NCBI GenBank assembly: GCA_937863385.1
Contig: CALMBW010000020.1
Span: forward strand, 124,001-188,000
Direction of reading: 5' to 3'
DNA: 64,000 bases
Origin: an uncultured Actinomycetes bacterium
GTDB lineage: Bacteria; Actinomycetota; CADDZG01; WHSQ01
Position numbers and translations under genes: made by a program. Below are positions 2,828-13,861 of this stretch, in pieces. The notes beneath the pieces are model-generated. The model saw nothing but the letters and a program-made list of their open reading frames with translations. It searched no databases and was not told the DNA's origin. Position 1 is the stretch's first letter, and every line of letters begins with the position of its first letter.

Positions 2828-4474
<1,647 letters not shown>

Positions 4475-4600: not shown

Positions 4601-4667
4601 CATCAGTTTCCGGGAAATGAACCGTAGAGGTACAAATCCCGGAAACAGAACGCGACGCATCACCGCT
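4601..4667. repeat. Palindrome-containing direct repeat, copy A
   Basis: A ~65-bp element that recurs at 5741-5806. It contains the inverted arms GTTTCCGGGA and TCCCGGAAAC about 20 nt apart, with an almost identical centre (AATGAACCGTAGAGGTACAA here). Similarity continues past the right arm through a CGCGACGC...CACCGCT tail. It lies just beyond the 3' end of the nuclease-like gene at 4702-5625. Confidence 0.88.
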
Positions 4668-4701
4668 CCTCCTCCCTACATATCAAAGCTCTCCCGCTGG
4701 G

Positions 4702-5625
4702 TCACGAGAACAGCTTGCGCACTCCCATCTTGCGCTCGATGGCAGCGCGGATCTCACGCTCGACGCGTCGGTCGTCGTCATGGAGGTCCGCCCAGGTGAA
4801 ATAGAGAAGCTCTATTCCGGCAGATGCGAGCTTGCGATCACGACGGGCATCCTCGTTGTGCTTTCCGATATGGAACTTGTAGCTGTGACACTCGATGCCG
4901 ATCAGTGAGAGGGGATGAAAGAAGTCGAGCACGAACCGTTCGCCATCGATGTCCAATTCGTGGTCCGCTTCGAAACGTTCCGACTTGATCCTCCGTAGGA
5001 TGCGGAGCATCCTTGCTTCGAACATCGAGCGGATCCGTTCATCTCTGTCGTCACGTTGCTTGAGAAGTTTCAAGAGCAGCGTACGGCCGGGCCGATACCG
5101 CCACTCTTTGTCCGCGAACTGAGACATCTTCTCGAGTGTCGTCATCCCTCGCCGTAAAGCGTCGTCAAGAGCTCGCCCGAGCGGTCCGGGCCCCAACGTT
5201 GCCGCCATCTCGGCGAGTACTCGCTCGGTACGGCAGATCCTGAACCCTTCAACATGGCGGCATTGCGGGCGATCACCACGACGCAGCTTCAGGACTTCTA
5301 CACCTTGGAGTGTGATGCCAGAGTGCATCGCGATGGTGATCCGATCGGGACGCTCGATCCCGTCAAATCGAAGGATGTAGCCGGCCGTGGGCCCAAAGAA
5401 GTGCCCTCGGTCCCCCATCCAAAGAACCACGGCCCACAGCCGTGTGTCAAAACCGTCGGGAACGCCCGGCAAGCGATAAACACCCGGCAGCACACGCTCC
5501 CAACCTCCAACAGTCGACCTGCGATGGAGCTGACGGTCGGTCAGCCCATTGGCCAGGGCTTGGCGTCGCGTGACGTGGCCCCTCTGCTTGGCAGCGAGTC
5601 GTTGAACACATCCGTCTGGGGTCAT
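4702..5625 (-). CDS. Putative AbiEi-like / DUF559 (PD-(D/E)XK nuclease fold) protein
   Basis: 307 residues. The N-terminal ~60 residues resemble the winged-helix of AbiEi-type antitoxins (QRGHVTRRQALANGLTDRQL, then ERVLPGVYRLPG). The C-terminal part (about 215-290) matches the Vsr-like DUF559 nuclease pattern: LDFF with Asp234, IECHSYKFH with Glu245, then DARRDRKLASAGIELLYFTW with acidic residues and Lys265. These are the residues expected of a PD-(D/E)XK metal site. Such fusions are common single genes in actinobacteria; whether this acts in toxin-antitoxin, defence or DNA repair is unknown. No partner toxin gene is adjacent. Two palindromic direct repeats bracket the gene, suggesting it may move or be regulated as a unit. 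Confidence 0.75.
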   Translation of the reverse strand: MTPDGCVQRLAAKQRGHVTRRQALANGLTDRQLHRRSTVGGWERVLPGVYRLPGVPDGFDTRLWAVVLWMGDRGHFFGPTAGYILRFDGIERPDRITIAMHSGITLQGVEVLKLRRGDRPQCRHVEGFRICRTERVLAEMAATLGPGPLGRALDDALRRGMTTLEKMSQFADKEWRYRPGRTLLLKLLKQRDDRDERIRSMFEARMLRILRRIKSERFEADHELDIDGERFVLDFFHPLSLIGIECHSYKFHIGKHNEDARRDRKLASAGIELLYFTWADLHDDDRRVEREIRAAIERKMGVRKLFS

Positions 5626-5740
5626 CTCCCGACCCGACCAGACTCAGGGAGACGACGTCATGCGTTAGCTCACAGGGCCGTCCTTATCGCCGGCCCTCAG
5701 CCGCGAGAGCGAGGAGGACCAGCCGGGGGAACACCCATCT

Positions 5741-5806
5741 CAACTGTTTCCGGGAAATGAACCGTGGAGGTACATATCCCGGAAACAGACGCGACGCCGC
5801 ACCGCT
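5741..5806. repeat. Palindrome-containing direct repeat, copy B
   Basis: Second copy of the element at 4601-4667, in the same orientation. Here the arms are a perfect 12-bp inverted repeat, CTGTTTCCGGGA and TCCCGGAAACAG, 21 nt apart. The downstream tail differs from copy A by one indel and a few substitutions. It sits about 115 bp upstream of the start of the nuclease-like gene. Confidence 0.88.
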
Positions 5807-12883: not shown

Positions 12884-12942
12884 CCCCCGTTCTGTTAACA
12901 GATCCCGCCACCAGTTGGCCGTTTTCGTTAACAGAACGGGGG
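12884..12942 (-). terminator. Long-loop terminator after the lipoprotein gene
   Basis: A perfect 16-bp inverted repeat: CCCCCGTTCTGTTAAC (12884-12899) and GTTAACAGAACGGGGG (12927-12942), with a 27-nt loop. On the minus strand the second arm is followed by TTTTT. It begins 6 nt beyond the stop of the gene ending at 12948. Each arm also contains the palindrome GTTAAC, so a regulator site is an alternative. Confidence 0.75.
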
Positions 12943-12947
12943 GGTGG

Positions 12948-13730
12948 CTATTCGACGGTGAACTCGGCGCTCATCCCTTCGGCGACGTGCGGAGGCCCAT
13001 CGGCTTTGTTCAGAGCTTCCATGTCGGTAGCTCCAACCGGCACGAAGCACACGGCCAGGTACTTGCCCGCTTCGAGGGGATAGGTCTCGGTATCCTGCGT
13101 CGAGGGAGGGCCGAAGACCGCTCCTATGAACTGGAGCTTGCTCTGAGCCTCTTCGTCGCTCATCTTCATCAGGTCGTCGACCGAGACGCTTTCGTCGAGC
13201 AGCTTCACCAACAACATCTCGTGGACCTCGGCGCCGTCGTTGGTCCAGTCGAAGGTCACATTGCCCGCCGGGACGCTTTCAGGAAGCCCGTCGAAGGCGT
13301 AATCGACCGCAGCAACCTCGAAAGACTCATAGCCGCACTCCGAGGCGACATACGCGTCGAGCTCTTCGTCCGCGGCTTGGAACTCCTCGGACTCGAACAC
13401 CGAAGGATCTTGAGTCTCAACCGCTGTGCGCACCTGAGGGATGAACTCGGCAACTACGTCGGCGATCTCCTCCGGAGGACTGTTCTCAACTTCATCGAGC
13501 AGACCCGGGATCACCGATGGGTCACTGCCCGACTGTGCCCCCACGACGGCAGCCTGAGCGGTGACGTAATCGTCGCACCAGGTCGAGTCGTCGGCCGTCT
13601 CTCCGCCGGTGCTTTCAGAGGCAGAAGGTGAGCCGGCATCGGCCCCAGGATCGTCTCCGCCACAGGCCACGGCGACCATCGAGATAGCGAGCACAAAGAC
13701 CAACGCGCGCGCGAGCTTGAACAGTTTCAA
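12948..13730 (-). CDS. Lipoprotein with a cupredoxin-like C-terminal domain
   Basis: About 260 residues. TTG 13730 is preferred: GGAGG lies 9 nt upstream and a lipoprotein signal follows at once (MKLFKLARALVFVLAISMVA, then VACGG as lipobox). Upstream in-frame starts would bury the signal. An acidic Ser/Gly linker is followed by a helical domain (~30-130) and then a beta-rich domain (VPAGNVTFDWTNDGAEVHEM, CFVPVGATDMEALN) resembling cupredoxin-like actinobacterial lipoproteins. The His, Cys and Met could form a metal site, but the spacing is not the classical type 1 copper loop. Function unknown; extracytoplasmic. Confidence 0.75.
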   Translation of the reverse strand: MKLFKLARALVFVLAISMVAVACGGDDPGADAGSPSASESTGGETADDSTWCDDYVTAQAAVVGAQSGSDPSVIPGLLDEVENSPPEEIADVVAEFIPQVRTAVETQDPSVFESEEFQAADEELDAYVASECGYESFEVAAVDYAFDGLPESVPAGNVTFDWTNDGAEVHEMLLVKLLDESVSVDDLMKMSDEEAQSKLQFIGAVFGPPSTQDTETYPLEAGKYLAVCFVPVGATDMEALNKADGPPHVAEGMSAEFTVE

Positions 13731-13861
13731 GAAAAGATCCCTCCGTAGATGAACTGGCCGGGTAACGCTAACCCCTCCAGCGGTATACGACATCAGAGCC
13801 ATCGAGCGCACTGAGAAGTGGGTGCAGACCGCTTCCTACGCTTGTAACACGCACCACACTC

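Follow-up and report, generated by a model that had tools for sequence, protein, structure and literature searches.

Why does a single nuclease-like gene of an uncultured actinobacterium lie between two near-identical palindromes, and what, if anything, ties those palindromes to the gene that they enclose? The locus that raises this question sits in a 64,000-nt stretch of DNA (here called the window, meaning the whole stretch that was analyzed) on contig C20 of a 2.77-Mb genome, which is assembled in 27 contigs and is 99.8% complete.

Two near-identical palindromes enclose one gene

The repeats form a direct pair, 4601-4649 and 5741-5789, that is 92% identical and spaced 1140 nt from start to start, and the full unit consists of a 49-nt imperfect palindrome followed by an 18-nt tail (Table 1), with the tails (4650-4667 and 5789-5806) being 89% identical in a register shifted by one base. 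Each copy has 12-bp outer arms, which in the upstream copy are CTGTTTCCGGGA/TCCCGGAAACAG with a spacing of 21 nt, an inner ACC/GGT stem adds to these arms, and the RNA-folding z values of the two copies on the plus strand are -3.9 and -4.6. A chance origin of the pair is excluded, because a 41-mer searched through the whole window with up to three mismatches gave two matches where zero were expected. An earlier note on this DNA had described near-identical repeats about 1.14 kb apart in the same orientation, an inverted repeat with arms of up to 12 bp about 21 nt apart, and no third copy in the window; the pair is as it described, the arms are those of the upstream copy, and the window indeed holds no third copy, though the genome has two further solo copies. 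The palindromes themselves have no match in Rfam, where the only weak matches were at the groEL terminator, and the exact focal pattern is absent from the viral and genome contigs searched. When the focal palindrome was searched as DNA in 198 genomes, only chance-like matches (for example in G054 and G108) were obtained outside its own genome.

Just one open reading frame lies between the repeats. It is neighbored by groEL (2846-4474) and by an unrelated 328-amino acid ORF that has no Pfam match, and none of the neighboring ORFs encodes an AbiEii nucleotidyltransferase toxin.

Table 1. Positions in the window of the focal gene, its bracketing repeats and a solo copy of a second palindrome family
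Feature	Coordinates	Strand	Description
Downstream palindromic repeat	4601-4667 (palindrome 4603-4649, tail to 4667)	.	Past the stop of the gene, 52 bp from stop to palindrome
Nuclease-like gene	4702-5625	-	307 aa; winged helix of the AbiEi antitoxin type at the N-terminus, EDxHD (Vsr/DUF559-like) nuclease domain at the C-terminus
Upstream palindromic repeat	5741-5806 (palindrome 5744-5788, tail to 5806)	.	About 115 bp ahead of the start codon
Solo copy of the palindrome cognate to the C27 paralog (L043)	12888-12938	.	9 bp past the stop of the 12948-13811 (-) ORF

The focal protein joins an AbiEi winged helix to an EDxHD nuclease domain

The earlier note had also placed an AbiEi/DUF559-type gene between the repeats; in the domain searches, Pfam AbiEi_4 (PF13338) was found matching residues 8-53 at 31.7 bits against a cut-off of 25, and DUF559/MTES_1575 matching residues 209-296 below threshold. 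All three Pfam models are matched at E<=0.01 by 36/36 aligned relatives, and the AbiEi models of PADLOC match residues 8-189. In the AlphaFold model, whose mean pLDDT is 79, with values of about 93 for the winged helix and for a large part of the nuclease domain, the fold of the N-terminal part matches Streptococcus agalactiae AbiEi (6y8q) and Mycobacterium tuberculosis Rv2827c, and that of the C-terminal part matches the catalytic domain of the homing endonuclease I-Bth0305I (3r3p), which was also found by profile search with the focal protein (E 1.2e-5). Residues E203, D234, H252, and D259 are invariant across the 36-row alignment and are consistent with the EDxHD motif, the assignment of residues to letters being our own. 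Pfam, PADLOC, and fold searches of the focal protein detected no HUH or transposase domain. Two relatives have features of their own: in one (L486, G007:C363:46500-51472), the N- and C-terminal halves are split about 1.8 kb apart, as if interrupted by an insertion, and the gene for another, 48% identical to the focal protein (L048, G014), is bracketed by an inverted 48-nt repeat of different sequence at 157-204 and 1166-1213.

Bracketing by its own palindrome is specific to this gene type

The same genome contains two other full-length genes of the AbiEi-EDxHD type, on contigs C27 and C19, and each is bracketed by its own, unrelated repeats, which at C27 are a 61-nt direct repeat with 98% identity and at C19 are inverted repeats of a tandem type. 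The true AbiEi/AbiEii pair of this genome (L045) has no bracketing repeats. At the C19 gene, the bracket consists of a 74-nt unit repeated in tandem, in two clusters of opposite orientation (L044 1135-1440 and 2405-2643), and pieces related to this unit recur on C19 only between 230 and 269 kb.

Beyond this genome, 32/63 diverse actinobacterial genes (51%) reached an ungapped bracket score >=20, compared with 6/1170 control positions (0.5%), which were shifted positions on the same contigs, and with a gapped score >=50 the counts were 35/66 and 4/477; about half of the diverse genes have no detectable repeat pair. Among 80 named genes, nearly all at mycobacterial loci, 62 (78%) were bracketed at a score >=40, as opposed to 0/466 controls. 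None of nine AbiEi genes without a nuclease was bracketed, and 1/62 viral DUF559 genes was, that one in AT-rich DNA. The bracketing pairs occur in direct as well as inverted orientation, and for 115 of 116 mycobacterial copies the fold is more stable than the mean obtained with shuffled versions of the copy. Annotated phages yielded no relative, viral contigs have mainly the nuclease domain in common, and plasmids yielded one full-length relative (Tsukamurella), which is likewise bracketed (score 70.5). The focal locus is one case of a widespread and apparently undescribed actinobacterial arrangement; searches of the open full-text literature, a coverage that leaves subscription papers and preprints mostly outside, found no paper that connects AbiEi/DUF559 proteins to such palindromic repeats.

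Each gene is matched to its own palindrome

The two copies within one locus have a median identity of 87%, compared with 60% between loci, and in 98% of loci the best match of a copy is its own partner. At orthologous loci (for example, L096 and L099), the palindrome core is altered in both copies, and at L130 there are several paired arm changes between the two copies, the arms covarying. In mycobacteria, the downstream palindrome includes the last codons of the gene (ISAR-stop in many). Just inside the upstream palindrome, and mostly 8-10 bases ahead of the start, 69/80 named genes (L260-L339) have the motif GGAACC-N17/18-GTC, which by motif similarity resembles an ECF sigma promoter with a leaderless start.

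Solo copies are dispersed in the genome

Sequence searches within the own genome found the focal family at four places, of which two are solo (C3:129850-129903 and C11:1039-1092); the C11 copy carries a paired change, CCAGG/CCTGG in place of CCGGG/CCCGG. The C3 solo palindrome (L003 1501-1543) has a sigma-factor-like gene pair on one side and an HD-GYP-like gene on the other, and its loop is reversed compared with the window copies. A further weak match on C11 (28013-28039) is in coding-looking DNA and is probably due to chance. The C27 family is larger, with 18 places, of which the 16 solo ones are 79-94% identical, and in it the outer 12 bp and the inner stem are nearly always paired, with the block between them mostly unpaired. 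Of 15 C27 solo copies examined, nine lie beside a stop codon that ends a long ORF, compared with 35/715 random positions. The copy at 12888-12938 is intergenic, and flanking C-runs and G-runs lengthen its dyad.

In mycobacteria, an exact-arm pattern, which covers one arm type only, was found in 24/148 genomes with up to 24 copies per genome, and a control pattern was found in none. The palindrome of a second mycobacterial gene copy occupies about 37 places in G479, 23 in G410, 15 in G434, and 10 in G522, counts that include a few flank matches and both-strand matches of one copy. It is absent from G058, G360, G416, and G403, where the flanks alone match and only the other gene copy is seen. 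Genomes G479, G410, and G522 carry the second gene copy, bracketed by its cognate palindrome; G434 is without the gene at threshold, so that palindromes appear to outlast a lost gene. A site that holds a solo copy in both G410 and G479 is without it in G522, G058, G360, and G416. The gene (E<=1e-30) is found in 18/24 palindrome-positive and 48/124 palindrome-negative genomes, a comparison of one arm type, uncorrected for relatedness, in which the correlation is confounded by phylogeny; six of the 24 positive genomes are without the gene at this threshold. The earlier note had named as a refutation of its reading that the element be REP-like, dispersed, and without relation to this gene: dispersal is indeed observed, but the repeats match their gene.

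Some loci have one palindrome or none

Mycobacterial loci take three forms, palindrome-gene-palindrome, one palindrome with an exact junction to the downstream flank, or neither. At the locus beside purC in 70 genomes, the gene was present in 36, one palindrome without the gene in nine, and neither in 22, with three loci cut off. In a comparison of sister species, the upstream flank of the gene-less locus L181 (G516) leads into one palindrome, and the palindrome continues directly into the downstream flank that the filled form, L198 (G455), also has. The same is seen at L137, L141, and L142 when they are compared with L099, and in L137 both flanks are likewise continuous, as judged against the L099 downstream flank. 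No target-site duplication was identified at single-palindrome sites. A mobile cassette with recombination sites, the better of the guesses in the earlier note, is thereby partly supported, in that a one-repeat, gene-less locus exists in these mycobacterial relatives.

The tree of the flanks at the purC locus needs 15 state changes. Across the 80 loci, the gene is found in 14 upstream-flank clusters, and the protein tree needs 17 changes compared with 35 for shuffled labels: gene movement is rare and inheritance mostly vertical. The L198 gene groups with the genes that two other Mycolicibacter carry at this same position, which favors gene loss in L181, but L194, with a solo palindrome, is the sister of the L181 and L198 pair, and the change may also have been an insertion. 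Broken nuclease genes, with a frame break or an internal stop, are found in G481:C4, G531:C202, G508:C32, and G476:C12, suggesting that decay is still going on.

Discussion

The explanation that we consider probable is a partnership like that of REP elements in REPtrons, in which the AbiEi-EDxHD nuclease is the enzyme and binds, and probably also cleaves, at the palindrome. The AbiEi winged-helix part would bind a palindrome of about 41-60 bp as a private recognition site, probably as a dimer, and the EDxHD nuclease would cut or nick at the bound palindrome. AbiEi binds a pair of 23-bp inverted repeats with 3 bp between them, 49 bp in all (PMC7319586), and I-Bth0305I forms a dimer on a target that is nearly 60 bp long (PMC3943268), so that the length of the palindrome is the size expected for a fusion of the two. 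Repair would then homogenize the copies and occasionally seed copies elsewhere, and recombination of the two bracketing copies would delete the gene and leave one palindrome. The gene would be mostly vertical in its inheritance, and the palindromes would be the mobile population.

REP elements and TnpA_REP work in a similar way (PMC8266576), and the REPtrons share with the present loci short, dispersed intergenic palindromes that are cognate to a low-copy, mostly vertical gene flanked by them. The dispersal is evident for the C27 family and in mycobacteria, but the focal family has few members. The enzyme is an AbiEi-EDxHD nuclease here and an HUH-Y1 transposase (TnpA_REP/RAYT) there, and the palindromes described here are longer, with an internal unpaired block. 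REP elements are defined by a conserved tetranucleotide, GTAG or CGTC, next to the palindrome (PMC8266576, PMC3733652), and neither tag was seen when the flanking DNA of the C27-family and focal copies was inspected. With neither an HUH enzyme nor the GTAG tag, the system is not a member of the REP/TnpA_REP family. The IS200/IS605-type insertion sequences likewise have one small gene between palindromic ends, but they differ in their HUH transposase, and in the present case the ends are near-identical, occur in either relative orientation, and leave single-palindrome remnants.

Among the alternatives, the best survivor, though unlikely, is that the palindrome is an operator: the AbiEi winged helix would repress its own promoter via the upstream copy, the downstream and scattered copies would be secondary regulatory or decoy sites, and the nuclease would act elsewhere. 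Both AbiEi and Rv2827c autoregulate via 23-bp inverted repeats in their own promoters (PMC7319586), and the promoter-like motif is suitably placed in the mycobacterial genes. An operator is not needed, however, at or over the stop codon, where a near-identical copy lies, nor does this account explain solo copies behind the stop codons of unrelated genes, one copy kept at gene-less loci, or the unbracketed AbiEi genes that have no nuclease. An operator role for the upstream copy is possible alongside the preferred partnership of nuclease and palindrome, in which that copy may serve both purposes. It is improbable that these are ordinary dispersed REP-like or terminator elements, spread by another enzyme, which the nuclease gene is merely apt to collect. 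Their dispersal, their position at gene 3' ends, and their occurrence in some genomes without the gene would suit such elements, but each nuclease locus has a palindrome sequence of its own, the dispersed copies fit the bracket of one gene and not that of another in the same genome, and control positions on the same contigs are almost never bracketed.

Strict homing, in which a homologous chromosome that bears the palindrome would receive a copy of the cassette at the same site and nowhere else, the dispersed palindromes being inconsequential relics, seems quite improbable to us. The focal protein shares with EDxHD homing endonucleases such as I-Bth0305I the fold and motif of the catalytic domain and, if the palindrome is the target, a long target size, genes are mostly retained at few sites, and single-palindrome sites exist. 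Yet a homing gene normally destroys its target on insertion, whereas here two intact copies flank the gene and the target, if it is the palindrome, is uninterrupted; tens of dispersed copies are not a homing trait; and the gene is free-standing rather than in an intron or intein, with an AbiEi winged helix as its DNA-binding part. Very improbable is an AbiE-type gene for phage defense or a toxin-antitoxin system whose repeats are incidental, a reading to which the PADLOC matches point. The type IV antitoxins (S. agalactiae AbiEi, Rv2827c) share the fold of the N-terminal domain and, as predicted here, long inverted repeats as binding sites, but differ in that the present gene has a nuclease fusion, adjoins no AbiEii partner, and has repeats on both sides and dispersed, and the true AbiEi/AbiEii pair of this genome is without them. 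Finally, the guide-like RNA hairpins that the earlier note had also raised are unlikely, as the pairs are both direct and inverted and thus have no fixed strand, and in mycobacteria the upstream palindrome precedes the promoter-like motif.

Whether the loci amount to a new class of mobile DNA, in which an AbiEi-EDxHD nuclease spreads and homogenizes its own long palindromes, with a private palindrome for each gene lineage, as a second, independent solution of the REP/REPtron type, is a proposition that we regard as evenly balanced. It suggests that at least two unrelated enzymes are behind REP-like repeats, and it offers an origin for palindromic repeat families of mycobacteria and other actinobacteria. 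The natural gene-palindrome pairs, each with its own sequence, are a panel for how a long-target nuclease shifts its specificity, and a testable function is offered for the many unexplained proteins that are named "AbiEi / DUF559 domain-containing" and at present labeled as antitoxins.
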